The notes under the pieces were generated by a model. It saw nothing but the letters and a program-made list of their open reading frames with translations, did no database searches and had not been told where the DNA came from. A program made the position numbers and the translations under genes. From Tetraselmis striata (taxonomy: Eukaryota > Chlorophyta > Chlorodendrophyceae > Chlorodendrales > Chlorodendraceae), in the NCBI GenBank assembly GCA_006384855.1, contig VCJN01000095.1:42841-106840 (forward strand): 64,000 bases of DNA, given 5' to 3'. Every line of letters starts with the position of its first letter. Within the stretch, counting starts at the first letter, position 1. This document shows positions 1 to 30,218 of this stretch, piece by piece.

Positions 1-911
1 TTGCTGAGTTTCCAGATGAATACCGCTGAGGCAGTAGCTGGGACTCTGGTGAGGTCCTGCACCTGCGAGAAGACAAGCATGTGACGAAACACTGGCACTC
101 AGGCGCTCGCTCCCCCTGCGCTCTGTCAAGTCAGGATTGTGTGTAAATGTGCGAGTGACCACCAATTGGGATCAGCGACTCTGTACCTCCATGCCCCACA
201 CCCGCACCAGGACCTCGCACTCCACCTTCCCAGTCTGAAAGGCCCCCATCAGCTCGGAGTTGGTGTGCCCAACCAGCATCCTGTAGCTGCAGCTCGTGTG
301 GGAGCTCTCCATCGAGAAGACCCCCTTATCTCTGATAAGATACAGTCGGCCACAAGTGAGTATGTGCATGTTGCAGGTGCATACCATTGACGTACATGAT
401 GCAATGGTGCGACCAAAACAAAGTCACTGCTGGGACTGTGGGAAGTGTATAAAGATAGAAGGGTCGTAGGCCAGCATGCCACAGCGGAGGGCGACGCACT
501 GCGCAGCAGGGGATGCGAACTTCAGCAGCGCTGCGTTGTCTTGTCTCCGAAGAGCGGCGAGCTGCGCGAGGACAACCTGCCAACAGAACGGGGGGCTGAT
601 CAGCTGCAGTGTGGATACAGAAAAAACTCCTTGGACGCACGCAGAAATTGTATGTGCCTCACGCTCATCCTTATGCTTAAGCACGTAGAATTTAACCCCC
701 TAACCCCACCACCCAACCCCTACCGGGGTCCCACGCAAGGGAGGCAGCAAGGGCGGCAGCTTACCTGGCCAGGCTCGACATCTGGGGAAGGCACAGTGGG
801 TATGGTCTCCGTGTCCGAGTTGGCGCTTGATCGAACACGTTTCATTAACATCCGACGTCGAGGCGACGGCATATATCCAAGCCTGCACAACGAGCAAATA
901 CACCTACACAT
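1..911 (-). CDS. DUF4864-like protein, 5' part of gene (runs off left edge)
   Basis: I infer four exons on the minus strand: about 911-765, 576-428, 331-187 and 62-1. All have GT donors and AG acceptors, and the phases match throughout (0, 2, 0). The second exon begins VVLAQLAALRRQDNAALLKF and continues with an ASP motif, like the opening 'QLxALRxxD...FASP' of the DUF4864 family in plants and algae. The third exon contains YRMLVGHTNSEL and ends VLVRVWGME; the fourth contains AVFIWKLS, matching the 'W-x-L' strand expected near the family's C-terminus. The function of that family is not known to me. The N-terminus is uncertain, with possible ATGs at 911 and 872; an organelle transit peptide cannot be judged. 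Phase-consistent exons and no lesions argue for a working host gene. The family name is recalled from motif pattern only. Confidence 0.5.
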
Positions 912-1984
912 TCGTTCGACGCGCCTGGCCCCGCCTTCTGAAACCAGATGGACTGCTATCGGAGCTCGGAGCAAGCAACAACAGCCTGCTCTAGTCTCGC
1001 AGTTGAGAGCAATGGCGAAGTAGAGTCAAGGCGCGATAGCATTCCGCCTCGATGATACATCTGCCCGCTGATTTTTGGCCGTGCGCCACCGACGCGCCGT
1101 GCAATCGCTGACACTGAGCGTCACAGGCGTTCCGGAAGACGCCGCGCCACCGCTACAAGCCTGAAAATAGTGCGAACGCGCCATGTTTTCGAAAAGACTG
1201 GCACACGGAACGCAAGCTAGGTAGTGGTCGGGGCCATGACAAGGCAAGGTGTCCCAGCAGGAATGCTTCGCTCCTTAGGGCAGTAGAGACGTCGTATAAT
1301 TGGGGCTTTGCACTCACGCACTCATCCGGAGAGCCTACTCGGCGTGTCATTCCTCCTCCAACTGGTCGAACTACCATGTAAGTCAGTAGGGCGAGAAACT
1401 GACGGTGCGTGGTCTGTGTGTTTGAGGCGCCGGAGAGACCCGCTGCGGGCGCGAGAAAAGGCCCGTCGCAGCCATGCACGGCAACACGGCAGGGATACAA
1501 CGTTTGTCGTTTGTTAGGTTGCATGTGAGCGGGGTGCGGAGGTTACCTCGGAGCGCGGACGCTGGCTGCGCCGCGAATACGGGAGAGGCTCGTGGCTGCG
1601 CGTCCGAGCCGGCCGGCTCTTATCGCCGCCGCGCGGCCAAGTACAACTTCCATTGCCGGACCTGGGCCTGTTCCCAATCGAGGAAACAAGAGCTGGTGTT
1701 GTGACACAGTCGGTGAGGGTGACGGAGTCAACAGTGTGTGTGCCCTATTCGGGGCAGCCTTGCTGTGGCCATTCACGCGCGAGTCCGTCCGCCTTCGCTG
1801 CGACGCGATATCGCGCGTGTTCTGGCGCCCATCCGGCGGTCATAATTCCGTTACCACAACGTATGTTCTAGAAAAGCTGAGTGGGTGTCCCCGGAACATA
1901 CATTATCTGGGTATTGCCCCCCCCCCCCCCCCCCCCCGGCATGCGTGGCGTGGAGACGTGCCAGCTCAGCGCGGCTGCCTGCGC
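912..1984. other. No supported gene
   Basis: Short overlapping open frames on both strands show no recognisable domain or splice-consistent chain. The stretch probably holds the promoter side of the minus-strand gene to its left. A run of about 20 C lies at its right end (1917-1937). Confidence 0.4.
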
Positions 1985-2095
1985 TTGTACATACTGGTGT
2001 GAATTACAAAAAAAGGACAGTTCCCCAAAATTAGAAAATCAACACAGCAAACCGCCTAAAAGCGGCCCGCATCCCGCAAAGGCGGGATGGATGAG
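1985..2095 (+). repeat. Diverged fragment of the 972-bp array unit
   Basis: The order 'tactggtgtg-attacaaaaa', then a Pro-like spacer, 'ccgcctaaaagcggcccgc' and 'atcccgc' repeats the order seen in each unit of the 30.2-35.8 kb array. It is clearly diverged and lacks the rest of the unit, so this family is also dispersed outside the array. About 120 bp to the right, 'ctggtgccagtcctgtcccg' (2214-2233) recurs at 61.31 kb, so another short dispersed repeat is present. Confidence 0.5.
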
Positions 2096-2370
2096 TGATG
2101 CGCACACGGTTCAGAGTCCGGGCCACGCGAGCACGTGTGTACATACTACTGTGCAAGTAGCGACTGTTTAGGCCGTCGGCCGTCGGCTCGTAGGGACGCT
2201 GCAAGGGTTTCACTGGTGCCAGTCCTGTCCCGGGGGCGGAAAAATAGAAGTAGCGACTGTTCGTTATTTCAAAGTTGAGTTAAAGGTTATTCTGCCCAAA
2301 AGGTCGCGCAGAGGACTGTTTTCAATGGACATACATTTAAGAGCGGAAATTGGCAAAATAGATAGAGAGG

Positions 2371-2650
2371 TTCAGTGAAAGCGTGCAAGGGAGACGTGCC
2401 AGGGGGGCCGCGCTGGGGGCGTAGTCAGGGGGGCGCTGTGTGGATCACAGCGAAACTGGAAGATAGCGGGCTCCGTTGTTACGGGCGGTTGTTTTTATGT
2501 CGGCTCGTGGTGCACACGCAGGGGCGCATTGACGGGTGAATTAGCAACCCGTACCGCTACAGCATCACATGCAGCTAAAAAGCGGTTTGGAATGGAGGAA
2601 AGTAACCCACAAAAGCTAGTTTAGATCATTTCAAAGTTTAGTATGGTTGC
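2371..2650 (+). repeat. Terminal fragment of a dispersed (DIRS-like) repeat family
   Basis: It begins ggttcagtgaaag and ends ctagtttagatcattt. Relatives in the same order lie at 13,450-13,690, about 30,100-30,218, 35,811-36,090 and 37,960-38,190. All end in a variant of aaacc(c)cataaac-gtttagatcatt. Here the fragment lies about 170 bp downstream of a minus-strand tyrosine recombinase remnant, and at 30.2 kb it adjoins an RT-RNase H ORF. I therefore infer it is an end of a DIRS-type element. Confidence 0.5.
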
Positions 2651-2817
2651 TAGGGACGAGCGAACGAAGAGAGCGGCACATAGACGAAGTATATATGGGT
2701 AGCGGCAGCTAACACATGATCATGCGCCGGGAAAGCCACTGCTGCGAAAACTTGAACTTGGAAGTGGCAAGCAAAGGGGCGCGATGTGGCTGAAGAAGAA
2801 CCAGTCGCCATGCATGA

Positions 2818-3916
2818 TTATGAAGGGAGGAAGTTAGGATCGATGTAGTCCAAGACGACGTCGGAGTTGCGCGCCCACCCGCCTACATATATTATGTGGC
2901 AAATGCGGGACAGCGGGACACCCATGGCCTTAGCGGCAGAGGCCTCATCCTTCCGGAGGGTGTGCGTGCTCCAGGAGGTGTCGGCAAGGGGGGGCGGCAC
3001 CGACGAGACGAGCCGACGTAAAAAAGCGAGTCCGAAATGGTAGCGGCAGTCAACGAGGTGGAGTGCTAAGCAGGGGTGACAGCCCACAAATTTTGTTCCC
3101 GGCCTAGCAATGGGTCGATGAATGCGAAGAAGAAGGAGGGTGCTCAACCACATGGAGAAGCGGCACGCTTAGGTCGTCACTCGTTGTTGCGCCATCTGGC
3201 GATGCCCTTCCCGCTACTTGCAGGGTATTGTTGTACGAGTCGATGTGCACTTCCCGGCGCACTCGGCACGACACGCCAGGAACCCCGGGCGATGAACATG
3301 AAATTGTCGACCGCGGGGCCATGAGGGCATGGAAGTCGTTTCAGTACAGCGGTACTCGGGGGGAGGAGCAGCATCAACGATTAGCTCGGCGAGTGCAACA
3401 AACGAGTCAGCGACATCAGCAGGTAGCGGGACCCGCAGGGCAACAACTTCTAGGCGGAGTTGCATGAGCATCATGCCGCGACGCGCAGCGGTGAGGCGCA
3501 AGCTGCCCTTAGCAATCATGGGGTCGATGTTGTGCATTTCGAAGAACGTGTTGATGGCCGCCGGAAAGGTAGGGATGCGGCGACTTAGCCCCGGCCAATG
3601 TGAGTGACCCCGCTCACCGATTCAGGAGACTACGTACCGAACATATGTAGCAATAATCGCCTCCATCGGGTTGATGTTCTCCGAGCCGTGATCGAACTCG
3701 GCGAACATAATGAGCTTCCCGGTATAGCTCTTGAGACTCGAGGCGGTGAGGGAGCTGGAGCAGAGGAGGTCCCGGCTCATCCAACCCGAAGGCCTCTTGT
3801 AGACGAGTCCGAAGTGAAGCCGCCCAACATGGGGAGAGCTTCGGGCTCGTCAATTTGAAATTTGAAATTTGGTACAAGCGAGTATAGTTTCGTCTTTGAC
3901 TAGCTGTCTTTACCAA
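2818..3916 (-). pseudogene. DIRS-type tyrosine recombinase remnant
   Basis: The C-terminal part contains STHTLRKDEASAAKAMGVPL followed by GGWARNSDVVLDYI. This is the H-x-x-R box and the final W/Y box of the tyrosine recombinases in DIRS retroelements (putative nucleophile in DYI). Upstream on the same strand, the frames around 3,540-3,720 resemble the SAM-like N-terminal domain, with INTFFEMHNIDPMIAKGSLR. The frame is broken by TGA near 3,622 and by in-frame TAG (3,216-3,214) and TAA (3,171-3,169), so it is decayed. It would have joined the circular cDNA of a DIRS element to the chromosome. No RT lies beside it; the RT piece at 27.9 kb may belong to the same family. Confidence 0.7.
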
Positions 3917-5096
3917 GCATTAGGGAAGGGCCGCCCCTTACCAACCCGTGTAGGATCCGCTGATTAAAGCGCGTAGGGCGGAGCCTATGTAGGTCTCGTG
4001 GCTATGTTGCAGTCCAGTCGTACTAGTCATCATCAATGGACACGTGCACGCTTAGTGTTTCATACGAGGGTGATGACACGCGTACAAGGCGCCAACCTGT
4101 ATGCGCCAGCACCCGCACCGGATGTGCACGACGCACGTCCGTACAAACACGCGACCACGTGACCGCCCGTATATGCGTTTCCCACCATTTCTATGGCCCC
4201 GGATCTCGTATTCTGCTCATGCGCTGAGGTCCACCGGCGGCGGCCAAGCAGCTAGGCCGCCTTAATTGTCATCTCGCTGCCGAGATCGCACCCCGCCTTG
4301 ACCTGCTGCCAGCGGTGTCCTAGGACGCCTCGAGGGCCGGAGGTCAAGGCGGGGAAAAAATCAAAACCCCCTTGCACCGTTGGCTGTATGCTCTCTTATG
4401 TTGTGCAGCACACCTATGCCGGATCGTCCGACGCTCAATAGCCACATGCCCACGCTCCTGGCCGAGGTCACCGCCCGAGGGCGGCTTCTTGGGTCCCGTG
4501 CACGGTGGGATCTATGAAAGCCGCCACCGTGCAAGGCTGTGCCGAGAATTGAAACCCCCCCCCCCCCCCCCCCCGTACTGGTCGGGCGGGTGCGCAACAA
4601 AGTACGAAAACACTATTTTATTTCGAATAGCCTTCGCGAGTAGGCTGCGCTCCTCCGAGTCGTACACCCCCCTCCCAACTCGTAGGCGGATTTCGGAGAG
4701 ACCGCCGACGCAAGGCCGAGGTCGTACATGTATTGTTTTTAGCAGCCCCCCGTGCAAGCAAGTTGCCGCCCTTCGGCGCCACTGGCACTACGAGCATTAT
4801 TTGAGAAGCCCCATGTGAGGCGCTCCTCGGTCGTCGCACGATCCGTCGATCAGCGGTAACTCCGACGGCGACGGCAGTGACTGAGCGACAACCGACGAAG
4901 ATGAGGAGCCGCTGCCCCCCGGCAGAAACACCCGCTACAACAGCAAAATTCCCCTAGCGCCTCGATCGCAGCCGAAGACTGCAAAACCCTACGCCCAATT
5001 CAAGAATACCGGATGTTTCTAAGCGCTACGCCCAGATATCGTGGCGGGTTACTACATTTGCAAAAACAATCCCCGCCAATAGTTGACATTGTGTTC
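3917..5096. other. No supported gene; hairpin and C-run
   Basis: No open frame here has recognisable features. A perfect 14-bp inverted repeat, CCCCGCCTTGACCT at 4291-4304 and its complement at 4341-4354, spaces a 36-nt loop and is followed by six A. A run of about 20 C lies at 4554-4574. The hairpin could be a small foldback element; nothing shows it is transcribed. Confidence 0.4.
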
Positions 5097-5130
5097 CGAC
5101 AACAGTAATGCAACCTATTTTGCCCCGAGG
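5097..5130 (+). repeat. Target duplication CGAC and left terminal inverted repeat
   Basis: CGAC at 5,097-5,100 is followed by the terminal repeat beginning AACAGTAATGCAACC. It pairs with the right end at 12,415-12,444. A subterminal palindrome, GTCC-AAGCAT-GGAC (5,244-5,257) followed by AAA, lies 140 bp inside and resembles palindromes elsewhere in the element. Confidence 0.85.
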
Positions 5131-5359
5131 CACGCGGTGCATTGTGGTTAGGTCTAAATTAGGGTTTGGGGGCAGCAGTGGGATTGCAAGCTAATATGAA
5201 TGCCGGTTGGTTCATTTTGTGCCAAGTCGGGGAAACCAATTCCGTCCAAGCATGGACAAATCAAAAGAGTGAAGGAAAGGGGCTCAAAAACACTGCGCAA
5301 ATCATTTGTCAGAATCTAGCAGCATTAACAACACGATAAAGTTTCATCATGTACGCAGC

Positions 5360-7612
5360 TCACCGTTCTGGGCGCGAGCAGAGGTCAATCAAATTTGAGA
5401 ACTCGCTGCTCTTCTCATCTTTGATGCCGATCTTCTCAAGTTCAACTTGAAGAACTTCAGACCTCTTGAACTCCTTCACTACTCTGATTTGCGGAAGTGC
5501 CCTAAAGCCGGGGCGATTTGCATCATGCTCTGCATACCAGCTCTCGAAACATCTGCGAAGGTTCTGCAGAAACAATTGCACCGATTTCGAAATTCCGACG
5601 CGGTTGCCTGCGCCAATTTACGACATGTTGGAACGTCAGATAACTCATTGACGAGAAAATAATCGAAGGGAGTGAGAAGGCAGGGATTGATACTTTCAGT
5701 CACAATTACCTGGAGTCACAATCGTCTCTGAAACCTTTTCTTTTCCCTTGGATTCCTTTGAAGGTTGAGTCGCTACTGGCTCATTTGCGCGTCCTTTCGA
5801 ACCTGTCAACACATGATTTCAAACAATGTAAATATGACACAGTGCACTCACAAAGCCAGGGATTTGATACTTTCAGTCACAATTACCTGGAGTCACAATC
5901 GTCTCTGAAACCTTTTCTTTCCCCTTGGATTCCTTTGAAGGTTGAGTCGCTACTGGCTCATGTGCGCGTCCTTTCGAACCTGTCAACACACATGATTTCA
6001 AACAATGTCAATATGACACAGTGCACTGACAAAAATCATATGATTGGAGAGGCAAGGACCTGATTGATAGTAAGCTTGCATGAGCTTTTCGTAATCGATT
6101 AGCCTTCGCGTTGTCTGCATTTGAGCATCTGAGAGGACCTGGCCGCTCTTGATTCGGGCCCTCAAAAGCAAGGCGGCCGATCTTTCTCCTTGCGAGTGCG
6201 TGCCGTAAGCCGGCACCCTACCTCCTAAAAGGCTCGGTTTCCAGGGGTTACCTGATGCCTCAGCGCCCGCTCTAGCTGCAGAAGCTGAGGCTGCACGGCT
6301 CTTCTTCGCCGCCGGCTGCTCGGGCACAGAAGATGACGCCTTGTGTTTTCTCCCTACTAGCGCTCCGAGCGCATCGAATTCTTTTGCTTTCTCGGTAGGT
6401 ATTGATGTCCGCTTGGACCTTCGACCTATAAATATCATATCCGGTCAGACCGTTTCGTCCCGCTGATGACAGAACGTTTCGTCCCACTGATGACCGACCG
6501 TTTCGTCCCACTGATGACAGACCGTTTCGTCCCACTGATGACAGAACGTTTCGTCCCACTGATAACAGAACGTTTCGTCCCACTGATGACAAACCGTTTC
6601 GTCCCACTGATGACAAACCGTTTCGTCCAACTGATGACAGACCGTTTCGTCCCACTGATGACAGACCGTTTCGTCCCACTGATGACAAAACGTTTCGTCC
6701 CGCTGATGACAAACCGTTTCGTCCCACTGATGACAAACCGTTTCGTCCCACTCATGACAGATCGTGTCGTCCCACTGATGACAAACCGTTTCGTCCCACT
6801 GCTGACAAACCGTTTTGTCCCACTGATGACAAACCGTTTCGTCCCACTGATGACAAACCGTTTCGTCTCACTGATGACAGACCGTTTCGTCCCGTTGATG
6901 ACAAACCGTTTCGTCCCACTGATGACAAACCGTTTCGTCCCACTGATGACAAACCGTTTTGTCCCGCTGATGACAAACCGTTTCGTCCCACTGATGACAA
7001 ACCGTTTCGTCCCACTGATGACAAACCGTTTCGTCCCACTGATGACAAACCTATTTGCAATACATTATGTACTGCGGTTTAATAATGTAATGTCTTTAAG
7101 TACTGCGCTTCACACTAATATTAAACCACTTCTTACGGCGGAGTACAGGCAGAGGTTCCCCCTGGCCGCTCTTCACCTCCACCCCCTCCCACCACCAATT
7201 AGCATCCTTACTGAACTTGCCGCAGCTGCCTCGACGGGACGTAATACTACCCTGCAGGACCCTGATGCCGCTCGTCTCGTTTGGGTTTCTATTCCCACTC
7301 GTCTGCCTACACCTCGAGCGGTCCTAGATTACACCGCTTCTACAGGGAACCCTATCCGAACTCGCTAGATCTGGCCGCATCACGCGTCGAGCAGGCAGGC
7401 GGCTACTGTACGCTCCCACTCGTATGCCTGCACCTTAAGTGGTCCTAGATTACACCGCTTCTACAGGGAACCCTAACCGAACTCGCTAGATCTGGCCGTA
7501 TCACGCGTCGAGCAGGCAGGCAGCTACTGTACGCGCGCACAACTCACCTGGGGTGGCGTCGTCCTTGCTTGTCTTCCTTGTCCTTGGCAGGCTCGTTCTT
7601 CTTCGGCGCCAT
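5360..7612 (-). CDS. Small basic companion protein of the transposon (gene A)
   Basis: Not recognised as a known family. Three exons are inferred: 7612-7548, 6418-6060 and 5607-5360, giving 223 aa and a TGA stop. The donor of exon 1 is a textbook CAG|GTGAGT, and phases 2 and 1 match at both junctions. The N-terminus MAPKKNEPAKDKEDKQGRRH is highly charged and is followed by a Lys/Ser/Ala-rich stretch (RKHKASSS..., AAKKSRAASAS) that could carry a nuclear localisation signal. The C-terminal exon (SVQLFLQNLRRCFESWYAEH, then KEFKRSEVLQVELEKIGI) looks helical. Its position inside the inverted repeats, head to head with the transposase, suggests an accessory DNA-binding or regulatory role. The second acceptor has an alternative (TATAG, 7 nt upstream), which would change the frame. 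It is disrupted only by repeats in introns. Confidence 0.6.
5680..6033. repeat. Two direct copies of a ~177-bp unit in intron 2 of gene A
   Basis: The sequence tactttcagtcacaattacc occurs at 5,691 and 5,868. The next ~150 bp are nearly identical, including 'ggttgagtcgctactggctc'. The second copy stops just before the donor of exon 2. A tandem duplication within an intron, with no coding effect. Confidence 0.85.
6451..7051 (+). repeat. 24-bp minisatellite, 25 units, in intron 1 of gene A
   Basis: The unit is about CGTTTCGTCCCACTGATGAC plus aaac. Twenty-five units fit exactly in 601 bp, with scattered single-base variants. TTTCGTCCCA...TGACAAA is an imperfect palindrome of the same pattern as TTTTGTCCCA-AC-TGGGACAAAA at 11.55 kb. 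The array lies between the donor at 7,547 and the acceptor at 6,419 of gene A. Open frames through it encode only the repeated peptide and are not genes. Confidence 0.95.
7294..7531. repeat. Two direct copies of a ~121-bp unit in intron 1 of gene A
   Basis: The sequence gtcctagattacaccgcttc occurs at 7,321 and 7,442. The copies share the downstream 'ctcgctagatctggccg' and 'cgcgtcgagcaggcagg' blocks and differ at a few bases. The right copy ends 15 bp before the splice donor of exon 1. Confidence 0.85.
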
Positions 7613-8163
7613 TATGGAGGTAGGTAGGTTGACGCGGTAGATGAGCGGGTTTCTTGGTGGGAAGCGGTGAGGGAGAGGTGGAAATGACGTGGTTTCAGTC
7701 TGCCGCCGCTCTGACCCCTGCTGGACCAACGGCGCGCGTGCACACACTATAGTGTACCTCGTCGTCGTCATCAGGTTCATGTATTTTGCACCGCGACGAA
7801 TATACAAGGCTAACTACTGCGACTATATATTACTATTACTGGAAGATAAAATATTCCCTACTCGAGAGTCATAACGGTACGAGAGTACAGTGGCGTGGCA
7901 ATAATACTTCCTTCATGGGATGATATATTCCTTGGATTGGATTCGGGTGTACTTACTAGTATAGAACTATTTCCGACATACGAAAGAAACACGAAATAAT
8001 ACGGTATTTGAGTCCTCAATTATTTTGACCCGTAGATGGATATTATGCCCCCCGGTCAACGGCCCGTCCGAGAACGGTCATCGGCCGTCACTCTGCCTCA
8101 CCACAGATCACAGTCCTTCTCCCCCTCCCCCCCCCCCCCCCCCACCCACTCGCCCCGCGCTGC
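7613..8163. promoter_or_regulatory. Shared promoter region between the two divergent transposon genes
   Basis: This 551-bp gap separates the start codons of gene A (minus) and gene B (plus), so it should hold both promoters. It is AT-rich in the middle (for example gactatatattactatta near 7,822). It also contains a C-run around 8,127-8,142 just upstream of the gene B start codon. No TATA box can be assigned to one gene with confidence. The role is inferred from layout. Confidence 0.4.
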
Positions 8164-11100
8164 ATGGCGGCGGTCGAAAGCATGGCCTCTTCTCCAGGAT
8201 CCGGCGCGTCGGACACTACAGTTACTTTACCGCTGTGTTCGTGCCGCAGCGGGTACTCGTGTGATTGCGACGCGCGTGCGAGTGGTCGTAAGGAGCCTGA
8301 GAAAAGGAAGTACACGTGGGGCAAGGGCTCCGATGAGGTCGCCGAAAGCGATAATGGCAAGGTCTCGTCTCTGATCAGCAAGCGCACCTCTCGCGATTGT
8401 ATCCGCCTCATGCTCGCCAAGGAGGCTAGCGAGCAGTCGCCATGCTGTTCGCGCAAGTGCGTGCACAAGCTATACTCACAGTGCGGAGAGGCCCTCGTTG
8501 ATGCCGTGTTGGACCGTGCGTTGACCGTATACTCTGGCAATCAGAACCGCTCCTTTGACCGGCTCGCTCAGGTTCTCAGGGGCGGCTACGAGTCGGCATC
8601 CGACAAGTTCGATTACATGTTTGATCACGGTGGCTACTTGCGCTCTTTCGACCATCGGGGCCCCATCTACACGTGTGGGCGTGCGTGGGAGGCCTTGCAT
8701 CATGTCTCGAAACACAGACGTCTCGTGATCCAGCGGTCGGTGGTGGATAACGAACCCACGTACATCAGGCAGCGCAAGCAATACGAGAGCAGACAAACCG
8801 GACCGAGGGAGCATGTGCGCATGTTTCTCGAGCACTTCTTCTCGGATGACCTCGGTCACGTCGAGATCATGCCTTTTCATGACGGAAACAGCGAGACCTT
8901 CAAGAAGCACCTACCTCCCTGGATGACCAAGATTTGCGTCTACTACTACTACAAGTCGTGGGCCGAGGACGACAACGCCATTCTCCGTGGTGAGGCCCAT
9001 TTTGTCCCACTGATGACATACCGTTTCGTCCCGCTGACGACAGACCGTTTCGTCCCGCTGATGACAAACCGTTTCGTCCCACTGAGGACAAACCGTTTCG
9101 TCCCGCTGATGACATACCGTTTTGTCCCGCTGATGACAGACCGTTTTGTCCCGCTAATTACATACCGTTTTTGTCCCGCTGATGACAAGCCGTTTCGTCC
9201 CGCTGATGACATACCGTTTCGTCCCGCTGATGACAAACCGTTTCGTCCCGCTATCGCCAGAACGTTTTGTCCCGCTGATGACAAACCGTTTCGTCCCACT
9301 GATGACAAAACGTTTCGTCCCACTGATGACAAACCGTTTCGTCCCACTCATGACAAACCGTTTCGTCCCACTGATGACAAACCGTTTTGTCCCGCTGATG
9401 ACAGACCGTTTTGTCCCGCTGATGACAAACCGTTTTGTCCCACTGATGACAAACCGTTTTGTCCCGCTGATGACAGACCGTTTTGTCCCGCTGATGACAA
9501 ACCGTTTCGTCCCGCTATCGCCAAAACGTTTAGTCCCACCGACGCCGGACCGATTTCGTCCCACTGATGACAGAACGTTTCGCACCGCTCATGGCATACC
9601 GTTTCGTCCCACCGACCACAAAAGTATTTGTCCCACATAATCAGCCGATATCGTCCCACTGCAGAGAGAACGTCTTGTCCCACTGCTGAGAGACGGTTTT
9701 GTCCCACTACTGACATACCGTTTCGTCACACTGATGACAGATTGTTTCGCCATGCTAATTACAGAATTATTCACCCACTACCGATATAATTATTTCGACC
9801 CACTTTAGACCGAACTTTTCTGTCTCGCATTATGAGACCTTATTTGTATACCGACCTATCACGCCCCTGCCCCTTTGTAGATTTGGCTACCGAGAGCGAA
9901 GTGAAGCTCGCATCGTTCGACACTTTCCGCCGGACTTGGAAGGAAGACTTCCCGGATGTCACCACGCCGAAGGTGAAGCGATTCAGCCACTGTCCCATAT
10001 GCGCGGCGGGCAAAGCACTCAGAGACCAAGCTCGCGAAATTTGCACAAAGGACATGACGCCAGAGGAACGTCAAGTGCACCGTCAACATCAGCAGCTGGT
10101 GAGGCGTCAGGTCAGAGCTGAGCAGAAGGTACACCTCAAGAGAGTGCGCCAGGAACGAAGGGATCTGAACAACGCCGTCTTTCAGTCGCGCCTTGGCCAT
10201 GGAAACTTCTTCTTCTTCGAAATTGATAGCATGGACTCCGCGAAGACCCTGCTGCCTCACTGGGTTCGCATCCCCAAGACTGTGAAGCCCGACATGCTCC
10301 TCAAGTACCACCTCACCTGTGTGAAGTACGACGGATACCGCCCGGACGACATCTACTACTACACCAACACCATCCCCCACGATTCGTCCACGACGTGCAC
10401 TCTAATATGGATCACGATCATAAAGGTGAGCTCGTTAGCCTTCCGATAGGTTCGCCGTGGTTGTCCGGTAGCCATGGACTGATGAAATCTGATCTGCGAT
10501 GCAGGAAATTCAACACCGTGGTAGAAAGATTCCGTACATCAGAATCCAGATGGACAACACCGTCAGGGAGAACAAGAATAGGAACGTGGCGGCCCTCTGC
10601 AATTGGCTTGTGTCTATCGGCATCTGCGACGTCATTCATTTGGTCTTCTTGCCTGTCGGGCACACTCACGAACGGGTTGACCAGATCTTCAGCCGCATCA
10701 GTCTTGCGCTATCTCGCAGCTCCGCCTACACAATCGAAGCCTTTCTTGACTTGGTGGCGAAGGCATTCTCGCCCACTCCGGAGATTGCTGAGCTCTCATT
10801 CTCCCTCGACTTCTCTGAGTGGTTAAGGCCCCATTTCCAAGACCACATTTAGGACATCAGTAAGCCGCACAAATTCGAGTTCACCCGTGACGACGCCGCC
10901 GCGTCCGGCGGCTCGTTGCGCACCGCCTTGTGGTCCAACACACCGCTTTCTGAGCCCGTGCAGATCTTGAAGAGCGCGCCAACTGGGACGCCCGAGATTC
11001 GTGCGGGCCGGCCCCTTTTGTACGCTCTCTGCGACAAAAAGAAGCCCGACGCGGTGAAGGTCCAGAGGTACTTGGATGATTTCAAGAAGGTCAGGTCGTA

Positions 11101-12152
11101 CATCACGGACCTGGCGGTCCAGTGGCACTTCTCCCCAATCGAGCGCGAGAGCTGGAAGAATCTGCTCGGCGACTTGGATGAGATGCAAACTGCTCCTTCG
11201 GCAGCTTTCTCCGGGTTCTGGCCGCAACGGAAAGAGGAAGTTGACGACTTCTTGCTCGAGCACGGGCAGACCGCGCCTGCTGAGGCACGTCACACGATGG
11301 CTACCAACGCCGACCTCAACAGTGCCGAAGCCGCTCGCGTTGAAGCCGAGGTTCGTGCTCAAGTGCTTCAAGATGACAGCGCCTTCCGGGGAGTTCACGC
11401 CGGCGCCAAGGAGAGGCTTCATGACAACACATCGCCCAGCGATGCAAAGGGCTCGAACCTCGTTGTCATCGACGTCTCCGATGTGAGTCCCATTGTTTGT
11501 CATTTTTGTCCTTTACGGGACAAAACAATTTGGTTCATCTACCTTGCTTGTTATTTTGTCCCAACTGGGACAAAAATGGCGTGGCGTCTCGCTCGGGACT
11601 AACATAGCTCGCGGTCTTGGTCATCGTTAGGTGCATGAGGAAGACAAGTGTCCTGAAACTCTTGGTGATTGGGAGTCGAGATTCGTCATCGGGCTTGTGA
11701 AGTCGCGCGAGACTACCGAAGACACGTTGACCGTGGCCGTATACGAGCCCTTCCATGCCGATGCAAAGGGCAAACCCCTCATGCCCCTATGGTTGTACGC
11801 GCAGACAAAAGGAGGGAAGAAGCCAGTTGACACAAGCTGGGAGAAGTGCCTGACGCTTCCTTGGAAGCTTGTTGAAGCCGTCCCCCTATCGTACGCGAAG
11901 GCCATCCACGACGCGTCGGGAAGTCGAGAGGTGTTCAACGAGGACGGCACCATGGTCAGAAAGAAGTGGTACGGTAAAAGCGTCCAAGTCGTGAAGACAT
12001 ATGCGCAAACTGGGTGGCAAATCAGCCAGCCACGAAACAACTGCGTCCACGTCATGTCAACCACCCCAGCGCAACGCAAACCCGGCGGAGTCGTCAAGTT
12101 TAACGCAGCCACGAAGAAGGACTTGCTTGAGTTGGGGATGCTCAACGAATAA
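8164..12152 (+). CDS. DUF7869-like transposase candidate (gene B), one in-frame TAG
   Basis: Four exons are inferred: 8164-8989, 9881-10425, 10505-11482 and 11631-12152 (957 codons including stop). Phases are 1, 0 and 0, and all introns are GT-AG. The N-terminal exon has paired cysteines (CSCRSGYSCDC, CCSRKC) and YTCGRAWEALHHVSKHRRLV, typical of the N-terminal part of DUF7869 proteins. The RNase H-like core shows FFFFEIDSMDSAK, then IQMDNTVRENKNR and VGHTHERVDQIFSR; the acidic residues there are candidate catalytic residues. A Lys-rich coiled stretch (about EEQRQVHRQHQQ) precedes the core. The last exon adds a domain I do not recognise. Codon 10850-10852 is TAG, with the same frame open on both sides, so this copy may be a pseudogene. 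The final stop is TAA. Acting as a transposase is inferred from family and context. Confidence 0.7.
8999..9830 (+). repeat. 24-bp minisatellite filling intron 1 of gene B
   Basis: Same unit and same genomic orientation as the 6.45-7.05 kb array, about 33 units. The variants TTTTGTCCCGCTGATGACAAA and TTTCGTCCCACTGATGACAAA are mixed. Units are regular up to about 9,520 and become increasingly diverged towards the acceptor at 9,880. The array makes up almost the whole 891-bp intron (8,990-9,880). Because the two genes are divergent, the array is read in opposite senses in the two transcripts. Confidence 0.95.
11503..11576. repeat. Two palindromic hairpins in the last intron of gene B
   Basis: TTTTTGTCC-TTTAC-GGGACAAAA (11,503-11,525) and ATTTTGTCCCA-AC-TGGGACAAAA (11,553-11,575) lie within the 148-bp intron 11,483-11,630. 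Both share the TTTTGTCCC/GGGACAAAA arms that appear degenerate in the 24-bp minisatellite. A good branch-point-like ggactaac lies at 11,607. Confidence 0.85.
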
Positions 12153-12189
12153 ACTATCAGCAACGTCTTGTGGCTAGCTAGCCGCTGGA

Positions 12190-12194
12190 TGTAA
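12190..12194 (+). terminator. TGTAA polyadenylation-type signal of gene B
   Basis: TGTAA, the usual poly(A) signal of many green algae, lies 38 nt after the TAA stop in AT-rich sequence. Gene identity and signal are consistent, but the cleavage site is not visible. Confidence 0.5.
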
Positions 12195-12227
12195 TAATCA
12201 TAATAAATATTGATTTATTGCCTCATC

Positions 12228-12247
12228 TTGTCCCATTTTGGACAAAA
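12228..12247. repeat. Subterminal palindrome near the right end of the transposon
   Basis: TTGTCCCATTTTGGACAAAA is an imperfect palindrome of the same type as those in the introns, about 200 bp from the right terminus. The left side has GTCC-N6-GGAC at 5,244-5,257. Closer to the right end, acggtgcaaaat occurs twice (about 12,399 and 12,416). Confidence 0.7.
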
Positions 12248-12411
12248 TGCTCCAAAACCAACATTGGATATGCGTCGCGGCTGGCCTTCATGCTGTTGAA
12301 TGCTGCACTGCACCCAAGGTCTACAAACCCAAGCTACATCACCAGTGAGTCTTAAGTACTGATAGTAAACCCGGGAACTAGGGTATAAACAAACCCTACG
12401 GTGCAAAATGA

Positions 12412-12448
12412 ATTCCACGGTGCAAAATAGGTTAAATTACTGTTCGAC
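12412..12448 (-). repeat. Right terminal inverted repeat and target duplication CGAC
   Basis: Read on the minus strand from 12,444, the end begins AACAGTAATTTAACCTATTT and matches the left end. CGAC at 12,445-12,448 repeats the four bases left of the element. Confidence 0.85.
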
Positions 12449-13449
12449 CCGAGAGACTCATACACATGCTAGACGGTTTCGTCAAGCCATGACATGATGT
12501 GTATTGTGCCACACAACATCAGCGATGGAGGGCCATGTAGCCCCCACCCACCCACACATACTAGCCGGCTCAGCGATAAATATAGCATTGAGCACCTCAC
12601 AGCTATTATGGTTAGATTACCTCCCCATCACACCACAATATCAATAAGCGGGACGCCAACGCACGGCTGCCTTAGCTTACCTGCTGAGCTATGGATGGGA
12701 TGGGTCTGACTTAGGTACAGACAGCAGGCTGGGGGGCGTTGATGTCTGAGCTACTCTTGATGCCTTGACCCACTAGAAGGAGGAGGGGCTTGGACACACG
12801 CGTGAGGATGGCCGGTAGCTTGAGCTGTGATTACACATTTGTGTTTCCCATAGTGGTTAGAGAGGACATGCCCTAAGAGCGACTCAATCTAGGCGAGTTG
12901 AGCAGCAAACGCGCAGTTGCAATCAATTTCAATTTCAATTTGGGTCGGCAGACGCCGGTCATCCTGTTTAAGACAGTCGTTCGTCAGGTCGGTCCGTAGT
13001 GGGAACAGACCGGGCACCCGGCAAACTAGTCGATGAACGTTCTCCTTGCCATGCTCTGCTTTCTGCATTAGTTTTGGCACCGCAAGGTATTCGTCCTTGT
13101 CACTTGCAGATTTTGCACCGGCACGGCCGCTTAGGGGTGGCTCGTCTTTAGCAAGTCCGGGCGCGCATTTGGTAGCTGTAGTCGTACCGATACTCGGCTG
13201 GGGGCCGTGATCGAAACTCATACATCGCGATATACCGGTATTCGGCTGCCCATGTACCGAATTGAGCCAGCGACGAAGTGAGCTCTAGCGGCAACGCAGA
13301 CTAGGCATGCATGTCCACTTGAATCAACTCGAGTGTCGGCTCGGCGACGGGGTCTTCTCCATCTGGCATGGTGACGCACAGAGTACGGACGAGAGTATCA
13401 CACTCGGATGGTGAGCTGAGTAGTGCGGTCTTTAAACAACCGGGAACCT
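12449..13449. other. No supported gene
   Basis: Only short unrelated open frames. The sequence caatttcaatttcaatttg (12,921-12,939) is a small simple repeat. This is probably old intergenic or decayed mobile sequence. Confidence 0.4.
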
Positions 13450-20695: not shown

Positions 20696-20740
20696 TATTA
20701 TTATTATTATTATTTATTTATTACTTATTGTTATTATTAA
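20558..20740 (+). repeat. (TTA)n microsatellite
   Basis: About 180 bp of TTA/ATT trinucleotides with a few interruptions, ending ttattattaa. It abuts the left end of piggyBac-like copy 1. It creates long artificial open frames of poly-Leu, poly-Tyr or poly-Ile. Confidence 0.95.
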
Positions 20741-23740
20741 TTCTCAAGTATTTCTGAGTTTGTGCCACCGTGGTCTAAAAAACGACATGTGCCCCCAGCG
20801 TGACCACGCCTCGCATCGGACGCCAGTCCACTTCTCCCGCCAGGATAGTGCCCCAAGGACCCGTCTCGATAAGCGGTGGGTGGTAGCGGGAGTAAAGCTG
20901 GGGCGCCGGCGCGGCCGCTCATGGTGGGCGATGAGTCGAGATCGGACATTTTTTTTTGCCCGATTTGTCGATGCCGCCGCGACGAAGATGATGCCCCGCC
21001 AGCCCCCGTACCTCAACCACCACCGGCCCCCATACCACGGACGGGACCCTGGGGTACCCCTGGGGGGCGGAGTTCCCCACGGTCCGGTGGTTTACGCGGC
21101 GGTTGTGCCCATCGGAGGTAGTATGCCACGGTGGCATACTAAATACTAACCGAAATAATCAAGTTACGGCCATCACCATGCTCGTTGATTGTTACATGTC
21201 CCACCACTGCACCACCCAGTATGACCCCAGCTGCACCATGCACTGTCCCGAGGGGTGGATACCTTACATTTGCAGTGCATAAGCTTGAATAGAGTGCGCA
21301 CATGGGCATATCTACGCTACACCGCTGAGAGTTCTTTGCCCGCTGAGCGGCCTCGTGCTTGTGCGCCGCCAAGCACTCAGGGTGCTCTTTCCCACAAACA
21401 AAGTAGCAGTGCGGTTGGGCCTGACGCTTCCCCTTGTCATTCGCGTCTCCCCTAGTGGTCATCACTGGAGCATTGCCACAAATGCAATACCAGCGCGACT
21501 TCCTGGTGCAGCCCGCAACAGTGCATGTGCGCACAGCGCGCTTGCCAGGCGCCTTCACCAGGTCATGAGTCCGGCTCCCACATCCCCTGGTGAAGCGAGT
21601 AGTCTGCACCTCCGGGTTAGTGCACAGTTGATATGCCAGGCGGCGCATAAATGTGTGTTGCGGCAAGGACGCCTGGCCATGCTTGAAGTACCGCCAGGCC
21701 AGATACGCGTTGACATGCGAAATGCCTAGCAGCGCCTGAAAGTCACGAACCCACCAGCGCAGAGTCCTGACAGACTTTTCGATGCATGAGTGGCCCTGGC
21801 GAAGAGCGTTATGGCGGTCAACAGTGTTGAAGCGCGCACGATACTTGCTGTGGATGTCCATTTGGTTCAGCGTGAAATCGTAAGTAGCGAATTCACCTGT
21901 GCGCTTCTTGATGGGCACTCTGCGCTGCCTGGGCTCGCCTTAGCTAGACGTGCCTGCAGTGCCAAGCAGAACCATCGGCTGCTTGTCCATGTCGGCTGCG
22001 GCCAGCAAGGACACCTCCTGCCCAGCAACGGAGATGGTGGTGGTCGCCGTTGCCCGATCGCCGCGGTTAGGGACCTGGCTCAATAGCCACTCCTTCACCA
22101 TGTAGGCATGCGCAGTCTTGACGTTGCCGATGATGTAGAGGCCGTGCATAAAGAAGGCCAGGGCAGTCCTCACACTCATGAAGCCAGCATCCAGAACCAC
22201 TACCCTACCACTCCCATGCCAAGGCTTAGTGCATCGCAACGCGACAGCACCATTGGCACCCAGCTTGTCATTGCGAGTCCCTAGTACATTTACTTTAAAA
22301 TTAATGTACTCAGCATTGGCCATTCTGAGTGCACCTTCATATAACTCATATATGATCAGTATCCCTGTCTCACAGCAGCATGTGGTGTGCGCTTCACGAC
22401 CATTCTCAGTGGGCTTCCTAGGGACAAACATCAAACCAACCATACCTCGGCCCAGCCAGGGCACCATGGACTCATCTACAACAATCCAGCAGCCGGGCTT
22501 GAATGAGCTTTGCAGTATAGTCGCGAGGTAAGCCGGAGGCAAGAAGAAAGCCATGAAGAACTGCAGGATAGACGCGTCGGCGGCACAGCGGAAAAGGGCG
22601 CCTGACAGCACTGGGGTGTGCTTGTCGTAGTTCGCAGGGTCGCATGTGCGCTGGCCACCCTTTCTCCACCGCAAGCCGTGCGCAGCGACAAAATCGGGCC
22701 CAGCGTCGACATTCGGAGCCTCGGGCTCAGGGGCTTCCAGCACCTCCTCGCTGACGTCGATGGCGTCGTCGTCGTCAATAGAGGGAAGGCCAGACGGGCC
22801 AGGGGTGGACGAGACCAGGGTAATGCCCGCAGGGGCGGCGGCTGCGGGCGCAACGGCGGCCGGTGCCGCAGGAGCGGCACCACGCCCACCAGCAGCCGCA
22901 GCACGGCCACCACCACCACCACGGCCACCACGGCGACCGCGCGCGCGGCCGCCACCTCGACCGTTGCCTCGGCCCGGAGCTTTGTTGGTGCTGCCAGGTG
23001 GTCGACCGCGCTTTTTCGGCTGCACTGGCGCCGATCTCGCTGCGGGCGCGACTGCGGCAGTTTCGGGTATGACGGCGGCGGGCGCAGCGGCGGCGTTTTC
23101 GGGTATATCGGCGGCGGGCGCAATTGCGGCAGCGGCCGGAATCTCTGGCGTCGCGCCAACTTAAACCACTCCGCCGCCCACGAGGCCTGCAGAGGACCCC
23201 CCCCCCAGCCTCCTGGGCCGGTGGCGGTGGCTCAGGCGGCCTAGGGGCGGATGTGCCCCCGCTCAAGCGCCTGCTGATCGAGTCGGTGCCAGCGAAAACG
23301 ACTGTGATCCCGCGCGCGGCGAGTGCAGTGAGCCCTTCCGACACGGTCCGGGCCGCTCGCGGTGCCCCAGGCGGCGTCCCGCCTTCCCCTGGGGCTGGGG
23401 CAGCCCCCTGGGGCGGCGGGAGCAGCTGTGTCCCCTCGCCGACGTCTGCGGCGCCCTCCATGCCGGCAGCGCTGATGAGTAGGATGGCGGTTGTCGACAC
23501 TTTGTCGGCGGAGAGGAGCGATCTGTCGCAGATGGCGGCGGAGGTGGTGGACCCTCAGCCGCCCGAATCACCACCCACGAAAATTTTGGGTCCAACTATG
23601 GCTCCTGACCTCTCATTTCCACACGTGCTGGGCCAGCATGCGCGGTCAGGAACTGTTGTGGGGGCATGTGTAGGTAGATGGCCACCGGTGGTCTAAAACA
23701 GGCGTTAAGGCCACCGGTGGCCTAAAGAAATTCTGGAGAA
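20741..23740 (-). mobile_element. piggyBac-like transposon, copy 1
   Basis: Ends are TTCTCAAGTATTTCT at the left and, in reverse complement, TTCTCCAGAATTTCT at the right. Both are followed inward by a GCCACCG(G)TGG palindrome. The left flank is ...TTAA from the microsatellite and the right flank is TCA, so this copy has no matching target duplication. It is nearly identical to copy 2, offset by 3,581 bp; seen differences are a C-run of 10 versus 9 and a few bases just outside. The pair is therefore a young tandem duplication. Confidence 0.85.
21139..23461 (-). pseudogene. piggyBac-like transposase, copy 1 (frameshifted and with in-frame stops)
   Basis: Same coding sequence as copy 2. The C-run around 23,197-23,206 has 10 C here and 9 in copy 2, which puts the N-terminal ~100 codons out of frame. 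The conserved part (23,025-21,940) has the AT-hook KKRGRPPGSTNK and a Gly/Arg-rich linker. It then shows the DDE core signatures VDESMVPWLGRG and VPRKPTENG, and VVLDAGFMSVRTALAFFMHG with the second Asp. After an in-frame TAA (21,942-21,940) the same frame continues with NTVDRHNALRQG (third Asp), LRRWWRDF-like sequence and a Cys-rich zinc ribbon (CTVAGCTRKSRWYCICG). Confidence 0.8.
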
Positions 23741-23743
23741 TCA

Positions 23744-24321
23744 TGTTACAGCAACATATCCTCGGACCACCGTGTATATAGTCGCTGTATAAATACGAAG
23801 CGGCGAAAAGAGGGCGAGTCTCGCTTGCTGATTCAGCAGTTGATTTAGCCGGCTTGTAGTGTTGATCTTGTAATACTGTTGTTTCCGGGTAATAATGCTT
23901 TTAGCGTTAGATTTGTCAGTAATTAATTACTTTTCAAAAGAGACGTATTATTTTGTAAAACAGATTAAATCTGCAAGCCGCGTAAAAGCGGCCCGCTGAC
24001 TACTGGTGTGCATTACAAAAAGGCCGGTACCCAACCCACCGCTAAAAGTTGTATTACCCAAAAAAAAAAAAAAGCAGCACTACAAGATCAGCAATACAGT
24101 ACAAGCCGCCTACAGGCGGCCCGCATCCCGCACGAGGCCGCGCAGGTCGGGCCGGTCGTCAGGTCTACGGGGCGGGCACGGCGCGAATCGCCACGCCCGC
24201 CGCCTGTACCGGCACCGGACGCCGGAGGCCGTCGTTCGACCGTCGCCCGTCCGTCGACGGACGCCGGGCCCCGGGTCGGCGGACTGCCCCCGCACCGCGG
24301 CGACCCCTTTTTACACCATCA
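23744..24321 (+). repeat. Short form of the array unit (578 bp) between the piggyBac copies
   Basis: Starts TGTTACAGCAACATATCC and ends CTTTTTACACCATCA, the same termini as the ~972-bp units at 30-35 kb. It lacks the central ~390 bp present there, from 'gtaaaaacgcgctgcgg' to 'gggccgctttt'. It includes the A-run and the GC-rich 3' part of the unit. Confidence 0.85.
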
Positions 24322-27320
24322 TTCTCAAGTATTTCTGAGTTTGTGCCACCGTGGTCTAAAAAACGACATGTGCCCCCAGCGTGACCACGCCTCGCATCGG
24401 ACGCCAGTCCACTTCTCCCGCCAGGATAGTGCCCCAAGGACCCGTCTCGATAAGCGGTGGGTGGTAGCGGGAGTAAAGCTGGGGCGCCGGCGCGGCCGCT
24501 CATGGTGGGCGATGAGTCGAGATCGGACATTTTTTTTTGCCCGATTTGTCGATGCCGCCGCGACGAAGATGATGCCCCGCCAGCCCCCGTACCTCAACCA
24601 CCACCGGCCCCCATACCACGGACGGGACCCTGGGGTACCCCTGGGGGGCGGAGTTCCCCACGGTCCGGTGGTTTACGCGGCGGTTGTGCCCATCGGAGGT
24701 AGTATGCCACGGTGGCATACTAAATACTAACCGAAATAATCAAGTTACGGCCATCACCATGCTCGTTGATTGTTACATGTCCCACCACTGCACCACCCAG
24801 TATGACCCCAGCTGCACCATGCACTGTCCCGAGGGGTGGATACCTTACATTTGCAGTGCATAAGCTTGAATAGAGTGCGCACATGGGCATATCTACGCTA
24901 CACCGCTGAGAGTTCTTTGCCCGCTGAGCGGCCTCGTGCTTGTGCGCCGCCAAGCACTCAGGGTGCTCTTTCCCACAAACAAAGTAGCAGTGCGGTTGGG
25001 CCTGACGCTTCCCCTTGTCATTCGCGTCTCCCCTAGTGGTCATCACTGGAGCATTGCCACAAATGCAATACCAGCGCGACTTCCTGGTGCAGCCCGCAAC
25101 AGTGCATGTGCGCACAGCGCGCTTGCCAGGCGCCTTCACCAGGTCATGAGTCCGGCTCCCACATCCCCTGGTGAAGCGAGTAGTCTGCACCTCCGGGTTA
25201 GTGCACAGTTGATATGCCAGGCGGCGCATAAATGTGTGTTGCGGCAAGGACGCCTGGCCATGCTTGAAGTACCGCCAGGCCAGATACGCGTTGACATGCG
25301 AAATGCCTAGCAGCGCCTGAAAGTCACGAACCCACCAGCGCAGAGTCCTGACAGACTTTTCGATGCATGAGTGGCCCTGGCGAAGAGCGTTATGGCGGTC
25401 AACAGTGTTGAAGCGCGCACGATACTTGCTGTGGATGTCCATTTGGTTCAGCGTGAAATCGTAAGTAGCGAATTCACCTGTGCGCTTCTTGATGGGCACT
25501 CTGCGCTGCCTGGGCTCGCCTTAGCTAGACGTGCCTGCAGTGCCAAGCAGAACCATCGGCTGCTTGTCCATGTCGGCTGCGGCCAGCAAGGACACCTCCT
25601 GCCCAGCAACGGAGATGGTGGTGGTCGCCGTTGCCCGATCGCCGCGGTTAGGGACCTGGCTCAATAGCCACTCCTTCACCATGTAGGCATGCGCAGTCTT
25701 GACGTTGCCGATGATGTAGAGGCCGTGCATAAAGAAGGCCAGGGCAGTCCTCACACTCATGAAGCCAGCATCCAGAACCACTACCCTACCACTCCCATGC
25801 CAAGGCTTAGTGCATCGCAACGCGACAGCACCATTGGCACCCAGCTTGTCATTGCGAGTCCCTAGTACATTTACTTTAAAATTAATGTACTCAGCATTGG
25901 CCATTCTGAGTGCACCTTCATATAACTCATATATGATCAGTATCCCTGTCTCACAGCAGCATGTGGTGTGCGCTTCACGACCATTCTCAGTGGGCTTCCT
26001 AGGGACAAACATCAAACCAACCATACCTCGGCCCAGCCAGGGCACCATGGACTCATCTACAACAATCCAGCAGCCGGGCTTGAATGAGCTTTGCAGTATA
26101 GTCGCGAGGTAAGCCGGAGGCAAGAAGAAAGCCATGAAGAACTGCAGGATAGACGCGTCGGCGGCACAGCGGAAAAGGGCGCCTGACAGCACTGGGGTGT
26201 GCTTGTCGTAGTTCGCAGGGTCGCATGTGCGCTGGCCACCCTTTCTCCACCGCAAGCCGTGCGCAGCGACAAAATCGGGCCCAGCGTCGACATTCGGAGC
26301 CTCGGGCTCAGGGGCTTCCAGCACCTCCTCGCTGACGTCGATGGCGTCGTCGTCGTCAATAGAGGGAAGGCCAGACGGGCCAGGGGTGGACGAGACCAGG
26401 GTAATGCCCGCAGGGGCGGCGGCTGCGGGCGCAACGGCGGCCGGTGCCGCAGGAGCGGCACCACGCCCACCAGCAGCCGCAGCACGGCCACCACCACCAC
26501 CACGGCCACCACGGCGACCGCGCGCGCGGCCGCCACCTCGACCGTTGCCTCGGCCCGGAGCTTTGTTGGTGCTGCCAGGTGGTCGACCGCGCTTTTTCGG
26601 CTGCACTGGCGCCGATCTCGCTGCGGGCGCGACTGCGGCAGTTTCGGGTATGACGGCGGCGGGCGCAGCGGCGGCGTTTTCGGGTATATCGGCGGCGGGC
26701 GCAATTGCGGCAGCGGCCGGAATCTCTGGCGTCGCGCCAACTTAAACCACTCCGCCGCCCACGAGGCCTGCAGAGGACCCCCCCCCAGCCTCCTGGGCCG
26801 GTGGCGGTGGCTCAGGCGGCCTAGGGGCGGATGTGCCCCCGCTCAAGCGCCTGCTGATCGAGTCGGTGCCAGCGAAAACGACTGTGATCCCGCGCGCGGC
26901 GAGTGCAGTGAGCCCTTCCGACACGGTCCGGGCCGCTCGCGGTGCCCCAGGCGGCGTCCCGCCTTCCCCTGGGGCTGGGGCAGCCCCCTGGGGCGGCGGG
27001 AGCAGCTGTGTCCCCTCGCCGACGTCTGCGGCGCCCTCCATGCCGGCAGCGCTGATGAGTAGGATGGCGGTTGTCGACACTTTGTCGGCGGAGAGGAGCG
27101 ATCTGTCGCAGATGGCGGCGGAGGTGGTGGACCCTCAGCCGCCCGAATCACCACCCACGAAAATTTTGGGTCCAACTATGGCTCCTGACCTCTCATTTCC
27201 ACACGTGCTGGGCCAGCATGCGCGGTCAGGAACTGTTGTGGGGGCATGTGTAGGTAGATGGCCACCGGTGGTCTAAAACAGGCGTTAAGGCCACCGGTGG
27301 CCTAAAGAAATTCTGGAGAA
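24322..27320 (-). mobile_element. piggyBac-like transposon, copy 2
   Basis: Termini as in copy 1. TCA precedes the left end (24,319-24,321) and follows the right end (27,321-27,323). The empty site can be read in the array as ...CCATCA|TGTTAC..., so the insertion duplicated TCA, or up to ATCAT if the outer T/A pair of the termini is counted as target. Canonical piggyBac elements duplicate TTAA. Confidence 0.85.
24720..27041 (-). pseudogene. piggyBac-like transposase, copy 2 (one frame, two in-frame TAA)
   Basis: From MEGAADVGEG at 27,041 to the TAG at 24,722-24,720 a single frame of 774 codons is open except for TAA at 26,744-26,742 and 25,523-25,521. The first TAA lies in a Pro/Ala-rich N-terminal region; the second lies between the second and third catalytic aspartates. 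The part between the stops has no ATG before the AT-hook, so the original start must be upstream of the first TAA. Domains: low-complexity N-terminus, AT-hook, DDE core (VDESM, VVLDAGF, NTVDRHN), C-terminal Cys-rich ribbon. As written the protein would be truncated. Two very short introns ending in CAG are an alternative explanation. Confidence 0.8.
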
Positions 27321-27323
27321 TCA

Positions 27324-27902
27324 TGTTACAGCAACATATCCTCGGACCACCGTGTATATAGTCGCTGTATAAATACTAAGCGGCGAAAAGAGGGCGAGTC
27401 TCGCTTGCTGATTCAGCAGTTGATTTAGCCGGCTTGTAGTGTTGATCTTGTAATACTGTTGTTTCCGGGTAATAATGCTTTTAGCGTTAGATTTGTCAGT
27501 AATTAATTACTTTTCAAAAGAGACGTATTATTTTGTAAAACAGATTAAATCTGCAAGCCGCGTAAAAGCGGGCCGCTGACTACTGGTGTGCATTACAAAA
27601 AGGCCGGTACCCAACCCACCGCTAAAAGTTGTATTACCCAAAAAAAAAAAAAAAGCAGCACTACAAGATCAGCAATACAGTACAAGCCGCCTACAGGCGG
27701 CCCGCATCCCGCACGAGGCCGCGCAGGTCGGGCCGGTCGTCAGGTCTACGGGGCGGGCACGGCGCGAATCGCCACGCCCGCCGCCTGTACCGGCACCGGA
27801 CGCCGGAGGCCGTCGTTCGACCGTCGCCCGTCCGTCGACGGACGCCGGGCCCCGGGTCGGCGGACTGCCCCCGCACCGCGGCGACCCCTTTTTACACCAT
27901 CA
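27324..27902 (+). repeat. Short form of the array unit (579 bp), left of the RT element
   Basis: Same termini and same internal deletion as the 23.7 kb short unit. It ends ...CACCATCA and is followed directly by the RT-RNase H sequence. Confidence 0.85.
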
Positions 27903-29771: not shown

Positions 29772-30218
29772 GGGTTACTGTTGGTCGACACTGGTCGAAG
29801 GTCTTGGACCTTGTTCCACTGAATGGGGAAGCGCTGCAGCTTCGTCCTCTCCTCGCGTTGGGCGAGTAATCAGCAGCTCGTTCGCGGGTAGTAGTTAGCA
29901 CGTCGCAAGCGGCGCGCGTACATTAACCACACAAACCCTAACGGGTTTCTCCCAGGGGGGGCCCCGAAAGGCGTCGCTCACCGTACATGGTACGATGGCG
30001 GAAGACCGGCACCCTGCGCGGCAAAATTGCCGCGACTTTGCTGTGGTGCGCTCGATGGAGCGTGCCACAGCAAAGGAGAGTGACCGGTCGGTCCGCCGTG
30101 AAGGCAGGTGGTGGCTCTGACCGGCCCCCGCAACCGTGCGCGCGCACACACGCGCTAAGGGCGCCGCGCCAGGGCTATCTCGTACAGGTAGAGAAACCAC
30201 ATAAACTAGTTTAGAACA
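27903..30218 (-). mobile_element. Truncated DIRS-like element piece between array units
   Basis: The left edge follows the terminal CACCATCA of an array unit. The right edge, after 'aaccacataaactagttta', passes into the middle of a unit at 'ttacccaaaa'. The sequence just inside the right edge belongs to the dispersed terminal family (2,371-2,650 and others). From 29,772 to 30,218 no coding sequence is visible. The two flanks do not form a target duplication, so this is a rearranged piece or the internal region of an element whose terminal repeats are the units themselves. Confidence 0.6.

Follow-up and report, generated by a model that had tools for sequence, protein, structure and literature searches.

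A 64,000-nucleotide stretch of the genome of the green alga Tetraselmis striata (assembly GCA_006384855.1, contig VCJN01000095.1, positions 42,841–106,840 of the forward strand), referred to here as the window and numbered from its first base, contains a 7,344-bp insertion at 5101–12444 (plus strand) that has inverted ends and the tetranucleotide CGAC on either side. The two copies of this target-site duplication lie at 5097–5100 (left) and 12445–12448 (right), and the terminal inverted repeats occupy 5101–5128 on the plus strand and 12417–12444 on the minus strand, where the left and right ends are identical at 24 of the first 28 bp and the element terminates in AACAG...CTGTT. The 20-bp end motifs at 5101–5120 and 12425–12444 give two matches to the end 20-mer within the window when up to three mismatches are allowed, compared with a mean of 0.01 in 100 shuffled sequences. 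Two divergent transcription units are carried by the element: gene A on the plus strand, which encodes a protein with a DUF7869 domain, and the remnant of a large gene B on the minus strand. The best protein matches of the element are gene models named Tetstr1 or TSEL, with 97–99% identity. The original prediction of a true transposition unit with these ends and a CGAC duplication was therefore correct, although its description of the element as complete has to be given up, as two internal deletions have removed about 5.2 kb, gene A contains an in-frame stop, and most of gene B is gone.

Two further features were observed at the right end. The sequence ATTTTGCACCG recurs just inside it (12390–12444) and is a possible additional binding site for the transposase. 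The right flank (12471–12747) is a dispersed repeat, for which 33 of the 40 matches listed cover the flank alone at 74–79% identity, so that the element landed in or beside older repetitive DNA.

Gene A consists of four plus-strand exons at 8164–8989, 9881–10425, 10505–11482, and 11631–12152, the last of which includes the end of the gene. Its product matches DUF7869 (PF25273) with E = 4.6e-39 and 134.5 bits, above the curated cut-off of 26 bits; in the window the match covers 10282–10840 on the plus strand (coordinates derived by hand) and is split by the intron at 10426–10504. The modelled core of the protein is predicted to adopt the RNase H topology, with conserved aspartates that follow strands 1 and 4 and a further one in the helix behind strand 5, as in the DDD/E pattern. 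In the window protein these residues are the pair D391 and D394 at the end of strand 1 (10225–10236), D474 behind strand 4 (10553–10555), and D516 in the helix (10679–10681), all on the plus strand, and they correspond to D385/D388, D468, and D510 in the numbering of the gene-A model P0004. The best alignments of the modelled core are to retroviral integrases and to transposases of the mariner type, and the aspartates of the core fall at the catalytic places. The proposal of a DUF7869-type protein with an RNase H fold thus agrees with both the domain match and the predicted structure. Pfam assigns no function to DUF7869, members of which are present in multiple copies in the liverwort Riccia and also occur in a fern, a sea urchin, and further records. 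Given the predicted fold and the conserved acids, DUF7869 is very probably the transposase of the element.

The window element is a crippled copy, with internal deletions, of a family that was active recently. Relative to a 12,576-bp copy (C154; copies are designated by C numbers), approximately 2.68 kb is missing at a junction at 5277–5282 and approximately 2.54 kb at a second junction at 5593–5598, each with a 6-bp overlap between the flanking alignments. The first of these junctions, searched genome-wide with up to two mismatches, occurs at one place only, the window itself. In addition, an in-frame TAG at 10850–10852 (plus strand) interrupts gene A, and the corresponding codon is open in all nine other readable copies, with C200 being unreadable at this position. 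Internal deletions with such short overlaps would fit failed repair after excision of the element.

The window copy has lost most of the large divergent gene B. Its first exon (MAPKKNEPAKDKED...) remains at 7548–7612 on the minus strand, where four extra bases relative to C238 shift the frame, and in the window the large annotated gene-B proteins match this exon alone. In C154, annotated relatives of gene B occupy 350–7869 on the minus strand, with gene A at 8434–12280. In the longer copies, gene B encodes a protein of 960–980 residues that contains an acidic stretch and ends in a methyltransferase-like domain, and the two annotated models that have both ends comprise 964 and 978 residues (P0162 and P0176). 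A gene-B model is found within two model numbers of 22 of 75 gene-A models, compared with 0.5 at random numbering, and this proximity in numbering indicates that genes A and B are neighbors. The C-terminus of gene B bears a weak resemblance to N6/N4 DNA methyltransferases: it matches PHROG_67 (DNA methyltransferase) at 3.5e-7 and PF01555 (N6_N4_Mtase) with E-values of 8.9e-6 to 1.6e-5, the best score of 26.2 bits being just below the curated cut-off of 26.7 bits, and the match to CcrM is weak (1.2e-3) and far below cut-off. Of 18 gene-B models, 5 match PF01555. Methyltransferases of this kind carry an S-adenosylmethionine (SAM) site and a DPPY motif; inspection by eye suggests a SAM-site-like DVTAGTGTT, with ADALFG where DPPY would be expected, and the absence of DPPY at that place makes the activity of gene B uncertain. 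A genome search with the gene-B C-terminus, in which 139 of 1,040 candidates were scored, returned 331 exon matches, and many of these lie inside known copies of the element.

The small basic protein that had been proposed as the divergent partner of the transposase corresponds to a real open reading frame (ORF) at 5998–6438 on the minus strand, which stays open in 9 of the 10 copies containing it, the window copy among them. It nevertheless lies inside the mostly deleted span of gene B, between the first exon and the acidic exon of the longer copies, and is present in none of the 72 annotated gene-B models. Of its 32 varying codons, 21 change the encoded residue, and splice-like phases would permit it to be an exon of gene B; it may be such an exon, a separate small gene, or an intron. 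The gene B span also contains a 177-bp unit in two copies (5677–6033), and a 24-bp minisatellite of 25 units (6449–7051) lies between the basic ORF and the first gene-B exon. The same 24-bp minisatellite is found in intron 1 of gene A (9000–9749) and thus in both divergent transcription units. A third minisatellite array is located inside gene B in all nine longer copies read, and array lengths differ between copies.

The 224-Mb genome of T. striata holds hundreds of ends of this element. With up to three mismatches, the end 20-mer occurs at 709 places, compared with 16 for a reversed-pattern control, and the exact 32-bp left end occurs at 83 places, compared with none for the control. Matching by hand of convergent ends no more than 30 kb apart, among 100 of the 709 places and with the window included, gave 19 pairs, of which 14 span 11.1–12.8 kb (12 of them 12.0–12.8 kb, the usual length of the longer copies), two span 7.3–7.4 kb (the window and C200), and three span 18.6–28 kb. 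Identical 4-bp flanks were present in 14 of the 19 pairs (GGTA, TCAC, GTTA, GCAG, GTTC, AACG, GTAC, ACAC, ATGT, GCCA, ACGC, AGCT, TCAA, and CGAC), and G or C accounts for 29 of the 56 bases in these duplications. The flanks of C455 and C488 agree at three of four bases, and those of C58, C200, and C226 disagree. The original prediction had looked for further copies with the same ends and 4-bp duplications and would have been refuted had no other copy with these ends existed; such copies are abundant. Across a 2.7-kb block compared among ten copies (C200 omitted), pairwise differences range from 0.07 to 2.98%, and the window copy differs from the other nine by 1.01–2.25% and has 11 private substitutions. 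This low divergence between copies indicates that the family spread recently.

Empty sites were sought by comparing joined flanks with the T. striata genome, with 40 candidates scored for each query and chosen matches read base by base. Related empty sites that cross the junction without gaps were obtained for eight other copies. For example, C54 has one empty site with 191 of 192 bases identical and a single GTTA, and 39 of the best 40 matches for C154 are sites at 99% identity, four of which were read and each of which has a single GTTC and no gap. Similarly, one site was found for C163 (189/191), two for C140 (181/183, with the target within a short internal repeat), two for C48 (182/191 and 181/191), and two each for C464, C264, and C345 (181–184 of 190–192, gap-free at the junction), with one target base differing in one of the C464 sites. 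Both sites read for C363 were not clean, each having a gap of four bases and a substitution next to the junction, and for C24, C238, C470, and C483 no empty site was present among the matches listed, an absence that is uninformative with 40 candidates scored each. The expectation of empty sites was thus upheld for the eight other copies and less fully for the window, whose own site is crossed only by diverged relatives (70–74% identity); of the five read, four have a single CGAC and the fifth CGGC, with one to two gap columns near the junction.

Precise ends, a staggered insertion that duplicates 4 bp of target, and a recent spread therefore characterize this family. An origin by segmental duplication or as a satellite, for which the minisatellites inside the element could be cited, is scarcely credible in view of the exact ends, the varied 4-bp duplications, and the empty sites of the eight other copies. 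As both genes lie within the element, DUF7869 could also be a passenger, with gene B encoding the mobility enzyme; this is very improbable, since no recombinase match was found in the gene-B proteins and pieces scanned and the relatives of gene B are nearly all from T. striata (71 models and one other protein, with 7,995 candidates scored), whereas DUF7869 is widespread, is multicopy in Riccia, and has an integrase-like predicted core.

Several superfamilies come into question for the putative DUF7869 transposase. Sola elements have been described as having a DDD transposase, a 4-bp duplication, and inverted repeats of 11–1124 bp, and as being found in moss and not common in flowering plants (PMC10741241). 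Compared by description, Sola (Sola1/2/3) is the nearest known superfamily, and the putative DDD core, 4-bp duplication, and 28-bp repeats of the T. striata element, together with the occurrence of DUF7869 in a liverwort and a fern, give an even chance that DUF7869 is a Sola-group transposase listed under another name in Repbase, and the element a new but otherwise ordinary Sola family that carries additional cargo. However, most of the longer copies measure 12.0–12.8 kb and carry a second large gene, and none of the 14 duplications fits the AWWT reported for Sola2 families of the amoebozoan Dictyostelium fasciculatum (PMC3627910), a preference that may not hold for all Sola2. That DUF7869 forms a superfamily of its own, distinct from Sola and every other named one, is a more tentative possibility: gene A and those of its relatives that were scanned hit no transposase model in Pfam or NCBIfam and no paper naming DUF7869 was found in a literature search, but the features of the element match those of Sola. 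Other groups are more distant. The element duplicates a varied 4 bp, not the TA of mariner, and gene A has no significant sequence match to Tc1/mariner (Mos1, SETMAR) or retroviral integrases. EnSpm/CACTA-like (CMCT) elements, including Lanisha, share the terminal inverted repeats and, with duplications of 2–5 bp, encompass the length seen here, but they have mostly CA...TG termini and a C2C plus H(3-4)H motif between the second and last acid (PMC12730594); the present element ends in AAC...GTT, and no C2C/H motif was seen by eye in the 41 residues between D468 and D510, so that membership in EnSpm/Lanisha is unlikely on termini and motif. The pairing of a transposase with a methyltransferase within one DNA transposon has a parallel in the giant algal virus elements Mariner-2_PGv and Mariner-1_OLpv, which encode a methyltransferase (PMC3627910); the partner in T. 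striata is methyltransferase-like, and the viral elements differ in their transposase, in their Methyltransf_26 and C5 cytosine types, in an added endonuclease, and in their viral setting.

Elsewhere in the window, a unit of approximately 3.58 kb is present as a tandem duplicate with 99.9% identity (20740–27905) and encodes a transposase fragment of the piggyBac type (PF13843, E = 3.6e-17). The duplicate looks like the result either of tandem duplication in the very recent past or of the assembly, and a third copy of the end of the unit, approximately 265 bp at approximately 99% identity, lies at 30218–30485. An RCC1-repeat protein gene (PF00415, E = 1.9e-50) is located at 58416–59345 on the minus strand.

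With high confidence, the insertion is read as a defective copy of a recently active cut-and-paste family, in which gene A encodes a DUF7869 transposase and gene B a methyltransferase-like protein; the cut-and-paste mode would follow from the type of family, and catalysis by DUF7869 is suggested by the predicted fold and the conserved acids. The gene A product would be an RNase H-fold recombinase of the DDD type with DUF7869 as its catalytic core, which would bind the inverted ends, excise the element, and insert it through cuts staggered by 4 bp, thereby duplicating 4 bp of the target, and which may cut and join DNA as mariner and integrase enzymes do. As a guess, the likeliest role of gene B would be to act on the DNA or chromatin marks of the element or to counter silencing. 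A bolder proposal, which is unlikely as it stands, is that DUF7869 constitutes a separate DDD superfamily with 4-bp duplications and members in green algae, bryophytes, ferns, and animals, and that in the Tetraselmis lineage it gained a DNA-methyltransferase-like partner, which marks the element's own copies at adenine or cytosine, or keeps such marks off them, so that they escape silencing.

The exact ends, target duplications, and empty sites tie DUF7869 to transposition, and the ends of the element are the substrate needed for a direct transposition assay. With the methyltransferase-like divergent gene, this may be an instance of a transposon that brings along its own means of handling DNA marks. 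Among the Tetraselmis gene models listed, at least 75 of gene A and at least 70 of gene B represent parts of this family, and their annotation should identify them as mobile elements.
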